Shown in pieces: positions 14,557 through 23,474 of a stretch of DNA of 45,061 nt (positions are counted from its first letter, which is position 1; every line of letters starts with the position of its first letter). This stretch comes from Alphaproteobacteria bacterium (GTDB lineage: Bacteria; Pseudomonadota; Alphaproteobacteria; Micropepsales; Micropepsaceae): NCBI GenBank assembly GCA_013697055.1, contig JACCXK010000184.1, positions 1 through 45,061 on the forward strand, written 5' to 3'. A program made the translations under genes and the position numbers. The notes under the pieces are model-generated. The model had not been told where the DNA came from. It saw nothing but the letters and a program-made list of their open reading frames with translations, and did not search any database.

Positions 14557-14927
14557 GAAGGTTGCGAGATCTCAAAAATCGCTCGGTCGTCGCGGATCGC
14601 AGGGATTCCAAATGTCCGCTTTTGGCGAAAAGCATACATTGGATTGGATAGGGCGAAATGGCCGCATCTGACCCAAAGCGGACATCCAACCGTCGTCGGC
14701 GGCTTCCATGACACCCAAACTGACGGAAGCGCTCGCGGAGCAGTGACCCTTCAAACGCGCCACGATATCGAGGAGGTGAAACTAATTCCGACAATCGAGC
14801 ACAACCAATGCCGGGCCGGAATCACAGTGCCTAGGGTCCGACGAAATGTGCGTAACGCTGTACGATAATCCTACGAACGACAAGCAAAGGATTATGACGC
14901 GGATCGCGACCATATATTCGCTTTCAA
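14557..14927. other. Intergenic stretch with repeat copy 10
   Basis: The repeat occupies 14611-14686. The rest (14687-14927) shows no gene, RNA or hairpin I can support; a 74-codon frame that starts in the repeat is considered spurious. Confidence 0.45.
14611..14686. repeat. Two-hairpin intergenic repeat, copy 10
   Basis: Left hairpin ATGTCCGCTTTTGGCGAAAA with decayed arm GCATACATT; right half GGCCGCATCTGACCCAAAGC / GGACAT. Located just after the NRAMP-related gene. Confidence 0.85.
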
Positions 14928-15397: not shown

Positions 15398-15473
15398 CAA
15401 TGACCGCTTTTGGCGCAAAGCGGACATTGGCCCCCCGGCCCGGAGTGACCGCTCTTGACCCAAAGCGGACATT
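15398..15473. repeat. Two-hairpin intergenic repeat, copy 11
   Basis: Left hairpin GACCGCTTTTGGCGCAAAGC / GGACATT, spacer TGGCCCCCCGGCCCGGA, right hairpin GACCGCTCTTGACCCAAAGC / GGACATT. It separates two leftward genes encoding exported proteins. Confidence 0.9.
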
Positions 15474-15930: not shown

Positions 15931-16369
15931 GCTGTCCTCCTACGTCTAGTTATCAGGCAGCATAACACTCGTACGGACCTCACAGCAGGGGGGTACAGCC
16001 CAGATTTGGCCGCTTCCCAACAACGTCCGCTTTTGGCGTAAAGCAGACATTGGGCCGAGTAGGTCGGAATGGCATCTCCTGACCCAAAGCGGCCATTGGT
16101 CTGGGTAGGGTTTTGGATAGGCAGTAAGGTGCGGCACTCTAGGCCTCTTCGTCCGGCACAAGGATCAGCGCCGCTCTCTGATATGGAAATAGAAAAGCCC
16201 CTCCCATGCCAATCGCCTTGTGTACCATATGGCGCAAAATCCGGGCGGAGCCATGTCAACAGTATGAAGGACACTCGCATGCACGTAGGCTTCGCTAGAC
16301 GCCAATACGGCAGAATATGCAAGATGCTAAACCTACGCATCCAATGTGATCTGTTTGCGTTGGTGACTC
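15931..16369. other. Intergenic stretch with repeat copy 12
   Basis: Holds the repeat at 16021-16096; the remaining 270 bases before the DUF6894 gene contain no supported gene. Open frames here overlap the repeat and lack signals. Confidence 0.45.
16021..16096. repeat. Two-hairpin intergenic repeat, copy 12
   Basis: Left hairpin CGTCCGCTTTTGGCGTAAAG / CAGACATT; right half has lost its opening arm (GGCATCTCCTGACCCAAAGC / GGCCATT). The upstream gene on the left is the periplasmic hypothetical at 15511-15930. Confidence 0.85.
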
Positions 16370-17772: not shown

Positions 17773-18189
17773 TCAGCGGCTTCTGGATTCGAGTACCTTG
17801 CGAATTTTCATCGCAGTGCGTTCCAAATCGTACGGCTTGGGTATGAACATGTCGCCCAGCGTCATGCAGCTTGAATCGTTGGCCTTGCCGATATCGCCTG
17901 AGGCGACAATGACGGGAATAAAGGGCCGCGTACTCTGAATCCACCGCACCAGACCAAATCCATCCATAGAGCCCGGCATGCGCACATCGGTGAATACCAA
18001 GTCGATCGCCACGGTGGTTTTCTTGAAGATTTCGATGGCTTCATTGGCGTTTGCGGCTTCCAGCACCTTGAAGCCCTTATCGTGAAGCATGTCGGAAAGA
18101 ACGGCACGAATGAGGGCCTCATCCTCGACCACCAGTACAGTCCTGGCCGAGTCAAGCCGTTGATTCTCCGGGAAATGTGCTTCTGACAT
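17773..18189 (-). CDS. Single-domain response regulator (receiver only)
   Basis: 138 residues from the ATG at 18189, with GGAG six bases before it. The receiver fold occupies nearly the whole protein. Acidic pair in TVLVVEDEALIRAVL, phospho-acceptor Asp in LVFTDVRMPGSMDGFGLVRW, Thr/Ser switch in VIVASGD and Lys in MFIPKPYDLE are all visible. There is no output domain, so it acts by protein contact, as do CpdR/DivK-like or stress-signalling receivers in alphaproteobacteria. No histidine kinase is nearby. Downstream, on the same strand after 140 bases, is the Crp/Fnr gene; a functional link is possible but unproven. Confidence 0.9.
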   Translation of the reverse strand: MSEAHFPENQRLDSARTVLVVEDEALIRAVLSDMLHDKGFKVLEAANANEAIEIFKKTTVAIDLVFTDVRMPGSMDGFGLVRWIQSTRPFIPVIVASGDIGKANDSSCMTLGDMFIPKPYDLERTAMKIRKVLESRSR

Positions 18190-18564: not shown

Positions 18565-18643
18565 GGAATGACTGCTTTTGGCGCAAAGCGGACATTGGGC
18601 TGACCGGAACGAATGACCGCTTTAAATCCAAAAGCGGACATTC
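18565..18643. repeat. Two-hairpin intergenic repeat, copy 13 (last copy)
   Basis: Left hairpin GACTGCTTTTGGCGCAAAGC / GGACATT; right hairpin GACCGCTTTAAATCCAAAAG / CGGACATT with an altered loop. The final codons of the gene at 18622-19101 lie inside it. No further copy appears to the right. Confidence 0.85.
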
Positions 18644-19468: not shown

Positions 19469-20056
19469 TTATGAGCTTTTAGGAACAATCCTCGAATTCC
19501 TGAGGCCTCGGACACCTCGGGAGACATAGTTGGAGACACCAAGTCGTTTACCGCGGATGGCACCCTGTGGCCGGCGCCAGGCTCTTTGCTGGTTCGGGGT
19601 GAGATAAATAATTCGAAGCTGTGGGGGCAACCCCTTCAAGAGGTATCCTGTAATCAAGGTCCGAGCGTTACACCATTCAGATTTTTTGCACGGGCTGACA
19701 TCTACAGCGCCCGAGCCTTTTTCCACTCCTGCCCATCGGCATATAAGATCCTCCAGCGCGACTATCGCGATAGCCTGCCGCAGGTAGGCGATATGGGCGT
19801 GTTCTATGACACCCGGTTGTTCACGCTCGCGATTCCAGAACAGTACGAAAGGCCCGGGGCGACCAAGCTTCCGCAGTCGTTCGATGATCTTTTGCAAACC
19901 AAGAAATGGGTCCGAAGCGAAGCACGTCTCTGACCAGCGCACCGTGATAAAGCAATCGGGTATGAGGTCTCTGGAAGCAACGAACTCATACCCATCAATG
20001 AAAGTGTCTGCCTGCTTACGACTGAGCCAATCCGATGTGGTGATACGCAGAGACAT
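19469..20056 (-). CDS. Probable HUH-type replication protein of the integrated element
   Basis: 195 residues from the ATG at 20056. The centre reads GPFVLFWNREREQPGVIEHA followed by HIAYL, giving an H-A-H pair (His-86, His-88) in the strand context of rolling-circle HUH nucleases. Downstream is ARTLITGYLLKGLP, with Tyr-138 as candidate nucleophile, and a C-terminal RGKRLGVSNYVSRGVRG block. I associate this order (WNRE..H.H.....YLLKG....GKR.GVS) with phage- and satellite-type replication proteins of alphaproteobacteria; it is from memory. It is the last gene of the leftward element operon, six bases after the chimeric capsid ORF. Confidence 0.55.
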   Translation of the reverse strand: MSLRITTSDWLSRKQADTFIDGYEFVASRDLIPDCFITVRWSETCFASDPFLGLQKIIERLRKLGRPGPFVLFWNREREQPGVIEHAHIAYLRQAIAIVALEDLICRWAGVEKGSGAVDVSPCKKSEWCNARTLITGYLLKGLPPQLRIIYLTPNQQRAWRRPQGAIRGKRLGVSNYVSRGVRGLRNSRIVPKSS

Positions 20057-20061
20057 AGCTT

Positions 20062-20778
20062 TCAGGCGGACAGGTGTGGCCAAGCCGGCTGTAACGTACA
20101 CAGCTTGATCTTCGCCTTCTCGTCGATCAAGCCGTTGGCCTGGCTGGCGAGGTGGATCCAGAGGGACTGAATGTCGTTGACGATCTCGTTGGCCGCGGCG
20201 ACCACCTCGTTGTTCACCACCCCCTCGTTGCCGCCATGGACTTTGTTGGCGGGGGTTAGCGACGCGCTCAGGTCGGAGATGTTGAGCAGGCCGTACAGCT
20301 GCAGGCCGCCCACGCCGAAGAAATAGGTCAGGTTCCCGTACTTGGACATCACGGTCGCCGCCGCCATGTCCATTTCCGAAACCCAGTTCAGGCGGGCCAG
20401 GCCGGCGCGCTCAACTTCGCGGTCGCCGTATTCTTCCATCGTCTGGAAGAGAAACGCCTGCCGCTGCGGCCAGTTGGTGTTGACGCCGGTGTGGCCGTTT
20501 TCGTTGAAGTCGCCATAGTTGGTGACCTCACCCACATGCTCCACAACCGGGAACATGATCGTGTCGTCCAGCCAGGTCCCCTTCTTGACCTCGCCAAAGA
20601 TTTCCGCGGCCTTGTTCGGGGTGAACAGGATCTTGCGAGTCCGTAGGTGGTCACAAACTACTAAAGAGAGCGGCAGCGGGAGATCGGTCGCCGGGCGCGC
20701 ATTTCCTGTAGGACCATAGTCGGTTAGCGCAAGTTGTATAGATCGAAGAAATTCCAAGAATGGAGTGCCGTCCGCCAC
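20062..20778 (-). CDS. Chimeric ORF with an internal DUF2184 phage-capsid fragment
   Basis: 238 residues. Residues about 49-223 (bases 20634-20110) match the middle of DUF2184-type major capsid proteins: KILFTPNKAAEIFGEVKKGT, then MFPVVEHVGEVTNYGDFNEN, QTMEEYGDREVERAGLARLN and LTYFFGVGGLQLYGLLNISD. The first 48 residues and the last 15 are unrelated and more like the neighbouring element genes. The normal capsid N-terminus and the C-terminal quarter are missing. The fragment is in frame throughout with no stop. The start codon overlaps the stop of the upstream gene, and the Rep gene begins six bases after its end. It is probably expressed with them, but cannot form a full capsid subunit. Confidence 0.7.
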   Translation of the reverse strand: MADGTPFLEFLRSIQLALTDYGPTGNARPATDLPLPLSLVVCDHLRTRKILFTPNKAAEIFGEVKKGTWLDDTIMFPVVEHVGEVTNYGDFNENGHTGVNTNWPQRQAFLFQTMEEYGDREVERAGLARLNWVSEMDMAAATVMSKYGNLTYFFGVGGLQLYGLLNISDLSASLTPANKVHGGNEGVVNNEVVAAANEIVNDIQSLWIHLASQANGLIDEKAKIKLCTLQPAWPHLSA

Positions 20779-21011
20779 TATTCATCCCAACGCACGCGAT
20801 GCCGGCGCCAAAACACCAGGTGCAGTTCTTTGATCGATATTTGACCGTTTTCAAATTCGATGGACGCATATTCCCTAAGTGACTGCCAAAAGGCGTTTCT
20901 ATGGCCATCACAACAAAAACGGGGCCTACACTGAGGACGGGGACGCAATTTTTCCAATGGTCTAGAGCACCAAGTGCAAGTGAGCGCCAACTTGGCAGGT
21001 GTATCATTCAT
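20778..21011 (-). CDS. Cysteine-rich small protein of the integrated element
   Basis: 77 residues from the ATG at 21011. It contains a zinc-ribbon-like arrangement: CTWC near residue 12 and PQCRPRFCCDGHRNAFWQSL near residue 25-45. This resembles the CxxC...RFCSxxCRxxF pattern of small zinc-binding proteins found in phage and satellite operons. The rest is a helix-strand tail (ISIKELHLVFWRRHRVRWDE). Its start overlaps the end of the AlpA-like gene by 8 bases and its stop overlaps the start of the chimeric ORF, so translation is coupled through this operon. Function unknown. Confidence 0.6.
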   Translation of the reverse strand: MNDTPAKLALTCTWCSRPLEKLRPRPQCRPRFCCDGHRNAFWQSLREYASIEFENGQISIKELHLVFWRRHRVRWDE

Positions 21012-21240
21012 CGGCGGTGTCCGCTTTAACGACACCAAGCCGGCGCAACAAAGAGGAAACTTTTATAAGTCTCCGCTTTCCGACAGTCGTCGATTCAACC
21101 CGGCCGGCGGCCAGCTCTTCGTACATCTTAGTCCGGCCTATACTGGTATAAGCACAGGCCTCATCTACCGTGCACATAATCCTTTTTTGAAAAGGGATGA
21201 TCGTGGTTTCAGCTGGTCGGGTCATAGCGGCATAGGGCAT
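21004..21240 (-). CDS. AlpA/excisionase-like HTH protein
   Basis: 78 residues. The core, CTVDEACAYTSIGRTKMYEE followed by LAAGRVESTTVGKRRLIKVS, is the MerR-like HTH_17 fold of AlpA/Xis proteins: helix-turn-helix (DEACAYTSIGRTKMYEEL) and a wing with the GKRRLI strand. Such proteins drive excision or activate integrase genes in P4-like elements. It is encoded in the same direction as the integrase, 1.0 kb downstream, and is the first of four overlapping genes ending with the Rep gene. The exact start is uncertain; a shorter product from the internal Met at about residue 22 would retain the full domain. Confidence 0.75.
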   Translation of the reverse strand: MPYAAMTRPAETTIIPFQKRIMCTVDEACAYTSIGRTKMYEELAAGRVESTTVGKRRLIKVSSLLRRLGVVKADTADE

Positions 21241-21313: not shown

Positions 21314-21595
21314 CTACCGCGTCTTTGATCTTTCGCTCGCAATGGTAACCCCGGAAGGCCTACGAAGAAGGCGGAAATTGTCCTCTTCTGCGATAAGCTG
21401 AATCTTGGCGTTGGTTGCTGTCAGCCCGCTTGCGCTGAGCAACTCTTTCACGGGTTTGACCACGTTGCGTATGTTCGGTGGGGGGACTCTATTCTCTACG
21501 GCCCGCCCATAAACCTGGTTTAACGCGGTGCGGATTTGTTCATCAGAAGCCTTTTTCCCCCCAATAGTGTATTCGCCGCTAGCGACAAGAGATAC
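21314..21595 (-). pseudogene. Out-of-frame 3' part of the element gene at 21520-21933
   Basis: After VSLVASGEYTIGGKKASDEQ this frame continues through IRTALNQVYGRAVENRVPPP and ends in IASERSKTR. It is a long, well-formed tail that joins the upstream gene if one base is restored near 21595 (around GACGAGGTATCTC on the coding strand). The joined interval 21933-21314 is 620 bases, one short of a multiple of three, as expected for a single-base deletion. It has no start of its own. Confidence 0.65.
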
Positions 21596-21933
21596 CTCGT
21601 CACGCCATCGCGTCGCACTTCAAGCCATTTAAATTTGTATCTCACGGTTGCCGTGTTTGCGCTTCTCCACCATTCACTTGGACAGAAAGTATCCCAATCG
21701 AAGTCACTGACTTGAAGGTGTGCAGGGATGAGGACGCCCTCACCGAGCATTAATTCGCCCACCCCAAAAAGCGGTAGGTCAGGGTCTGTTTGACTAATTT
21801 CAAAACGTATCTGGACTTTTCGATCTGCGATTGCCGCAACGAGATCTGCCTTTGCCGCATCTAAAGAAGCGCCGGCCACTGAAAGCCGCTCCACAGCATG
21901 AGACAACATCTCCCAATCTGACAAATAGGGCAT
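21520..21933 (-). CDS. Element-borne hypothetical protein (5' part, frameshifted)
   Basis: The intact frame gives 137 residues: a helical start (MPYLSDWEMLSHAVERLSVA), a TDPDLPLFGVGELMLGEGVL middle part and the FDWDTFCPSEWWRSANTATV block. The last about 25 residues after RRDGVTRY are out of frame; the true C-terminus is encoded in another frame down to 21314. The reconstructed protein would be about 206 residues. I do not recognise the family, though its place between the integrase and AlpA gene is typical of accessory genes in P4-like elements. Either a real inactivating deletion or an assembly error. Confidence 0.6.
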   Translation of the reverse strand: MPYLSDWEMLSHAVERLSVAGASLDAAKADLVAAIADRKVQIRFEISQTDPDLPLFGVGELMLGEGVLIPAHLQVSDFDWDTFCPSEWWRSANTATVRYKFKWLEVRRDGVTRYLLSLAANTLLGGKRLLMNKSAPR

Positions 21934-22025: not shown

Positions 22026-23237
22026 CTAAATAGCTGCTTTGACTATTTCCAGTCGTCTTTTCTTTGTTCCATCCAAGTAATTAGCCCACCAGCACATCAT
22101 GTCGCGCCGCCCAGGAAGCCATTCAGCGCCGTTGTAAGTGCCTCGCACCGAACCATCGAAGTGCGCTAGTTGCATCTCGATCCAATCGCGGTTGAATTGG
22201 GCTTCATTGAGGATAGTCGAGGCTGTGGCACGAAATCCGTGCACTGTCGCTCGACTATGGTAACCCATGCGATAGATGGCAAAGAGCAATGTATTTTCCG
22301 ATATCACTTCGTGCTTGGTGGCAGCGGGAAAAAGGTACTCGCTGTTCCCCGTACGTTTTTGCAGCAATTCGATGACGCCAACGGCTTGGGGCGCAAGCGG
22401 CACTAGGTGCTCCCGGCGCATTTTCATCCGTTCAGCGGGGATGCGCCAAAGAGCTTCACGAGAACCCAATTTTTCGAATTGCGACCAACGGGCAAAACGC
22501 AACTCGGAAGTTCTGACGAATGTCAAAAGAAGAAGCTTCATACCAAGTTTGGTCACCGGTTCGCCGTCATAGGCCTCCAACGCCTCCACAAAGGAAGGTA
22601 GTTCTTTGGCCGGGAGTGCAGTCCTGTGTTTTGTTGCCTTGGCCGGCTTAAGAGCACCTTTGAGATCCGCAGTAGGATCTCTGGTGCACCGGGCGGTCGC
22701 TACCCCATAGCGAAAAATGCCGCTCGCCATCTGCATGACCCGCTTTGCCATCTCGATGGCATCTCGTCGCTCGATCTTTCTGATCGCATCCAGGATTTCG
22801 AGCGGCTCGATGTCCGCGATAGGACGCTTTCCAAGTGCCGGCAACAAATCGTCGTTTAGGCGGCTCTGCAGGCGCGAGGAGTAAGTTTCTACCCATCTCC
22901 CCTTGTTGACCTCAAACCATTCTTGGGCAACTGCCTCGAAGGTATTAGCAGCGGCAATCGATCGCTTGCGCTTTGTTGCCCTACGGTCTGCTGCCGGATC
23001 CGTGCCCGCCGCCAAAAGTTGTTTCGCCGCGTCGCGCGCTCTGCGGGCATCCAGGAGCGAAACTGCCGGATATTTTCCTAGGGCGAGAGTCTTCTGTTTG
23101 CTGTGAAAACGATACGCCAAGCTCCAAAGCCGCGATCCGGCGGTCGTAACCAATACATACAACCCTTCACTATCACTGAGCTTGTAGGGCGCCTGCTTGG
23201 GCTTCAAAGCCCTAACTGTGGCATCCGTTAAAGGCAT
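22026..23237 (-). CDS. Tyrosine integrase, P4/DUF4102 type
   Basis: 403 residues from the ATG at 23237. The N-terminal arm-binding domain (MPLTDATVRALKPKQAPYKL, then DSEGLYVLVTTAGSRLWSLA) is the DUF4102 type. A core-binding domain follows at about 98-185. The catalytic domain has all key residues: Arg-242 (LTFVRTSELRFARW), His-333/Arg-336 (VHGFRAT), His-359 (QLAHFD) and nucleophile Tyr-368 (GTYNGAEW). It should integrate the element into the tRNA gene whose 3' end lies 160 bases upstream. The start codon is overlapped by one of three 12-base boxes, suggesting autoregulation. The gene is intact, so the element could still move if its other end survives. Confidence 0.92.
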   Translation of the reverse strand: MPLTDATVRALKPKQAPYKLSDSEGLYVLVTTAGSRLWSLAYRFHSKQKTLALGKYPAVSLLDARRARDAAKQLLAAGTDPAADRRATKRKRSIAAANTFEAVAQEWFEVNKGRWVETYSSRLQSRLNDDLLPALGKRPIADIEPLEILDAIRKIERRDAIEMAKRVMQMASGIFRYGVATARCTRDPTADLKGALKPAKATKHRTALPAKELPSFVEALEAYDGEPVTKLGMKLLLLTFVRTSELRFARWSQFEKLGSREALWRIPAERMKMRREHLVPLAPQAVGVIELLQKRTGNSEYLFPAATKHEVISENTLLFAIYRMGYHSRATVHGFRATASTILNEAQFNRDWIEMQLAHFDGSVRGTYNGAEWLPGRRDMMCWWANYLDGTKKRRLEIVKAAI

Positions 23238-23287
23238 GTTGGTGTTTTCCGGGAATGTGTTGGTGTTTTGGCCATAAAACACCAACA
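23237..23287. promoter_or_regulatory. Three 12-base boxes on the integrase start
   Basis: TGTTGGTGTTTT occurs at 23237-23248 and 23258-23269 (21 bases apart, two helical turns) and inverted at 23276-23287. The second and third boxes form a perfect inverted repeat with a six-base centre. The first overlaps the integrase ATG. Likely arm-type binding sites for the integrase or an operator. Confidence 0.65.
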
Positions 23288-23397
23288 ATTTACGCGGATA
23301 CCCGCGAACAGCCCAGTCCACTGGCGCACATAAACGCCAGATTTATCGGGATATTTTTGGGCTCTCGAACGCCCGCGCACGCAGGCGAACGAAACGT

Positions 23398-23474
23398 TGG
23401 TGGGCCCGCCAGGACTCGAACCTGGGACCTAACCGTTATGAGCGGTCAGCTCTAACCAACTGAGCTACAGGCCC
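23398..23474 (-). tRNA. tRNA with CAU anticodon (Ile2 or Met)
   Basis: Read leftward from 23474: a GGGCCTG acceptor strand, a D arm (GCTCAGTTGGTTAGAGC), an anticodon stem ACCG/CGGT enclosing loop CTCATAA, a T arm with GGTTCGAGTCC, the closing CGGGCCC, discriminator A and encoded CCA at 23400-23398. The CAU anticodon with a G1-C72 end and this body is typical of the tRNA-Ile2 that is modified to read AUA, although pipelines often label it Met. Its 3' end points at the integrase gene and is the presumed attachment site. Confidence 0.9.

Follow-up and report, generated by a model that had tools for sequence, protein, structure and literature searches.

An internal fragment of a phage major capsid gene, probably captured in the spacer of a tRNA-Met-integrated element

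The open reading frame at positions 20062-20778 of the window (the whole 45,061-nucleotide stretch of DNA that was analysed) contains an internal piece of a phage major capsid gene that is very probably a recombination scar, a captured scrap of capsid DNA lying in the spacer of an integrative element and reading through in frame by chance. The ORF has 238 codons, starts with GTG, lies on the minus strand and is open throughout, which confirms the intact frame given in the original prediction and adds the strand. The features on which the analysis is based are listed below, all on the minus strand.

19469-20056, minus: Rep-like protein of 195 aa with an HxH motif (EHAHI), start ATG at 20056, downstream neighbour of the ORF
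20062-20097, minus: C tail of the ORF, 11 residues and the stop, probably non-coding read-through
20098-20634, minus: internal fragment of a DUF2184/PF09950-type capsid gene, ORF residues 49-227
20635-20778, minus: N part of the chimeric ORF, probably non-coding read-through; spacer following the 86-aa gene
20778-21038, minus: small cysteine-rich protein (CxxC...C..H) of 86 aa, upstream neighbour of the ORF
21004-21240, minus: AlpA/excisionase-like HTH_17 protein (PF12728, E=2.2e-6)
21520-21933, minus: unassigned 137-aa protein of the element (no Pfam match, weak PHROG match only)
22026-23321, minus: tyrosine integrase of the element (PF22022, PF13356 and PF00589; PHROG 1, E=2.3e-57)
23398-23474, minus: tRNA-Met identified with ARAGORN, integration site of the island

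Capsid homology and predicted fold of the fragment

Residues 49-215 of the ORF matched PHROG 264, annotated as major head protein, with E=1.9e-26. A profile built from 124 near-full-length capsid proteins, taken from 135 loci in viral contigs and genomes, aligned residues 49-227 to positions 71-249 of 362 with E~2e-86, the one match in the window. A search of all six frames of the window against the profile revealed no further capsid pieces, including frameshift remnants. By tblastn the same stretch was recovered from 494 phage records, several carrying a major capsid or DUF2184 annotation, and PF09950 was absent from the Pfam matches of the fragment. Scanning of genome contigs with the profile yielded 50 capsid loci, while the scan with the ORF alone as query returned no match. 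The closest full-length protein found, encoded in a Rhodospirillaceae MAG (L131), is 69% identical over the fragment. As judged by sequence comparison, the homology to DUF2184/PF09950-type HK97-fold major capsid proteins is real and far beyond chance. The middle of a capsid protein, recognised in the original prediction by motif, is thereby borne out by the profile search that it had proposed, in which a lack of any capsid match would have counted against it. The span had been placed at 20110-20634, the limits of which are better set at approximately 20098-20634. An additional ~20 bp of capsid sequence in another frame (GTGACCACCTAC, just upstream) was considered and rejected, the match being present in only 1 of 60 relatives, and the left edge of the fragment is for that reason uncertain by ~20 bp. 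A match of 29 of 30 bp between 20099-20128 and another genome falls within an unrelated gene and appears to be a coincidence.

The fragment is without ~70 N-terminal and ~113 C-terminal capsid residues and so represents only part of a full-length subunit composed of N-arm, E-loop, P- and A-domains. The predicted model of full-length L131 is an HK97-type capsid protein closest to those of Pseudomonas phages Pa193 and E217. In this fold the fragment holds the E-loop region, the long helix with adjacent strands and one further helix, and the missing positions 250-362 form a segment of the A-domain and strands of the P-domain. AlphaFold predictions made with the same aligned sequence set gave a pLDDT of 79.7 and a pTM of 0.75 for a full-length relative, compared with 50.3 and 0.29 for the window ORF. 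The low pLDDT fits a polypeptide that would be unable to fold alone, a low-confidence model being suggestive and not proof.

Three nearly invariant capsid residues are changed in the fragment (N161L, P168S and W186G). Changes at conserved sites as extreme as these occur in 3-5 of 72 other capsids, placing the fragment within the range of divergent capsids. Position-specific branch lengths likewise placed it within the capsid range, at rank 11 of 51 for the ratio of positions 1+2 to position 3. The fragment is free of stops and frameshifts and retains a GC3 of 0.89, from which it would be either recent or kept, and a recent capture if neutral.

Ends of the open reading frame and the spacer in related modules

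The GC contents at codon positions 1, 2 and 3 are 0.58, 0.35 and 0.89 for the fragment, 0.69, 0.50 and 0.48 for the N part and 0.58, 0.67 and 0.67 for the C tail. In a sliding plot the coding pattern starts and stops at the edges of the fragment, with position-3 GC falling from 0.8-0.94 to ~0.4-0.6, and capsid homology stops at residue 227. Some BLAST alignments begin at residue 9, suggesting N-terminal capsid homology, yet residues 1-48 scored -3.4 bits against the capsid profile, a value equalled or exceeded by 311 shuffles. At the given base composition the N part would be free of stops by chance in 15% of cases and the C tail in 65%, or both in ~10% (0.15 x 0.65). The 48 N-terminal and 11 C-terminal residues are thus probably non-coding read-through. 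Since the end regions are without coding signal and could be open by chance, the best reading of the fusion is coding DNA whose flanks happen to be open, not a selected chimera. The original prediction that both ends are foreign stands insofar as they are not capsid, although the halt of coding periodicity at the fragment edges argues against their belonging to an element gene. The idea of a capsid fragment embedded in such a gene was likewise abandoned, the ends having no coding signal and the fragment filling an intergenic spacer.

Relatives of the 86-aa protein are encoded in the same genome as the window (G000:C172, 36% identity, pairwise E=6e-13) and in a second genome (G075:C9, 35%, E=6e-11), in each case followed by a gene encoding a 233-aa Rep-like protein. 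The gap between the cysteine-rich and Rep-like genes is 261 bp in G000:C172 and 312 bp in G075:C9, both without capsid DNA, compared with 721 bp in the window, of which ~537 bp is capsid; the comparison modules are distant (~35% identity between the small proteins), and neither has a recognised integrase next to it. The spacers of the two relatives align with frame-breaking indels and are for this reason probably not a gene. A hidden small gene in the related-module spacer was rejected on the same grounds, and the spacer of the window is not significantly similar. From these sequence comparisons, the capsid piece sits in the spacer between two element genes. The original prediction was to be overturned by related elements that lack the fragment and show its flanks as one contiguous gene; the fragment is indeed lacking from the two modules, but the flanks are two genes plus a spacer.

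The two relatives are also of interest in themselves. Positions 413-1657 of G000:C172 (L184) and 403-1761 of G075:C9 (L182) each hold a compact two-gene module of cysteine-rich and Rep-like genes, with no integrase recognised among the adjoining ORFs. The Rep-like proteins of L184 and L182 are 82% identical across two species, and the two-gene module may itself constitute a small mobile unit.

The host element and its integration site

The Rep-like protein encoded at 19469-20056 had no Pfam or NCBIfam match. It scored 19.6 bits against a four-sequence Rep-like profile, compared with 4.4 bits for the best of 1000 shuffles, and is a divergent member of an unnamed HxH family common to L182, L184, L190 and a Parasedimentitalea plasmid (L192). 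In another genome (G012), genes for an integrase, an AlpA-like protein and a Rep-like protein occur in the same order, in support of interpreting the window as an element of the integrase / alpA / rep type. The ORF had been described as translationally coupled to both neighbours. Upstream, its GTG does overlap the stop that ends the 86-aa ORF (TAGTG at 20778), as described; the overlap claimed downstream is not retained, as it rests on an unsupported GTG at 20101 and the supported Rep-like start, ATG at 20056, follows the stop of the chimera.

To the left of tRNA-Met the contig departs from nine related loci that were compared, the synteny of which stops at or near the 3' end of the tRNA. The tRNA-Met looks like an integration hotspot, as genus synteny ends there and the DNA beyond differs among the genomes compared. 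A search of the window for a direct repeat of the tRNA-Met end, which would mark the far boundary of the island, found none. Dispersed intergenic palindromic repeats around AATGACCGCTTTTGGCGCAAAGCGGACATT are present at 14611-14685, 15399-15464, 16022-16096 and 18567-18641.

Origin of the fragment and comparison with known systems

Among the family genomes, the ORF has just one further match, a full-length capsid gene carried by a G087 prophage. When the window DNA between 19400 and 22025 was compared with 95 family genomes, it matched only this prophage gene and one short stretch that looks coincidental. Besides the full-length prophage gene, no conserved second copy of the fragment was found in 96 family genomes; the same chimera, which the original prediction had proposed to seek in related elements, has no second copy there, and the two related modules are without the fragment. 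Conservation under purifying selection across related elements or genomes, as for a domesticated gene, was not observed, there being one copy and related modules without it. Head genes (portal, protease, decoration) do not accompany the fragment, and a portal of the same phage type was not found in the window's own genome.

Recombination scar was among the options of the original prediction and is supported by the spacer position, the non-coding ends and the capsid-free related modules. According to the proposed course of events, a ~537-bp internal piece of the major capsid gene of a temperate phage would have been captured by illegitimate recombination. The target would have been the spacer between the cysteine-rich and Rep-like genes of an element integrated at tRNA-Met and organised as int / alpA / small cysteine-rich gene / rep-like. 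The inserted coding DNA being stop-free, chance would carry the ORF 48 codons further upstream and 11 further downstream. If co-transcribed with its neighbours, it is predicted to yield at most a non-folding truncated polypeptide. We infer both the capture route and the absence of function.

It is unlikely that the fragment is instead the remnant of a mostly deleted prophage at the same tRNA-Met site, with the present element assembled over a capsid piece left behind. The synteny break at the tRNA 3' end indicates that the site has been used for integration, and a prophage with a capsid of this family is known in the same bacterial family. However, a comparison with the remaining proteins of eight intact capsid loci gave no match near the fragment, a single weak one at 17836-18150 aside, and the location between genes that are adjacent in related modules is a better fit to insertion.

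A domesticated dominant-negative decoy, in which the truncated subunit, produced through translational coupling to the 86-aa gene, would disrupt the assembly of a superinfecting phage's capsids, is highly unlikely. Positive evidence for this possible role is limited to the open frame and the overlap of its start codon with the upstream stop, an arrangement that would permit coupled translation, although the fragment does retain the long HK97 helix and the strands beside it. Against it are the ends without coding signal, the lack of a conserved second copy in the 96 family genomes, a truncated protein that is not predicted to fold, the changes at nearly invariant capsid residues and the lack of a defence-family match among the sequences scanned in the region. 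The literature search found no relevant papers on dominant-negative capsid fragments. Slightly less likely still is the more specific proposal of a decoy translated via upstream coupling and directed against PHROG 264-type phages, a bacterial parallel to Gag domestication; were it true, the decoy would represent a novel type of anti-phage gene. Neither the decoy nor the satellite-helper function raised in the original prediction is favoured by related modules without the fragment, the missing defence match and the predicted inability to fold. Finally, although the window is one of 256 contigs of a fragmented draft genome and relatives contain no copy of the fragment, a capsid piece misjoined from another molecule is extremely improbable, as it would require two separate misjoins inside 540 bp of a contig that in other respects fits a single island.

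Phage satellites known to modify the capsids of their helpers (SaPI Rcm, PMC12409344; PLE, PMC10945586) act via dedicated morphogenesis proteins. The window element resembles the SaPI and PLE satellites in being small and integrase-bearing and in having an AlpA-like gene; among satellite-type genes (PICI/P4/PLE), integrase and HTH_17 are present and a Rep-like homologue is indicated by a weak profile match. In contrast to these satellites, no morphogenesis, packaging or conserved capsid-derived gene was recognised in it, and no packaging or capsid-redirecting genes were recognised among those island ORFs scanned with Pfam and PHROGs.

The middle of the DUF2184/PF09950 capsids (PHROG 264; Pseudomonas phages E217, 8frs, and Pa193, 9b40) aligns without internal break to residues 49-227, whereas the window fragment is without the A-domain segment, the C-terminal P-domain strands and the neighbouring phage genes. 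Read as a recombination scar, the fragment adds another example to the debris of phage genes seen in integrative islands and is of little importance in itself. It does illustrate how stop-free coding DNA inserted in a spacer may pass for two genes fused in frame, and how readily GC by codon position and the gene spacing of related modules reveal the resemblance as false. The closest likeness is to prophage gene remnants in integrative islands, which are likewise isolated, truncated phage structural genes inside a tRNA-targeted island; the window differs from these in having a single 537-bp piece, free of stops, between two element genes.
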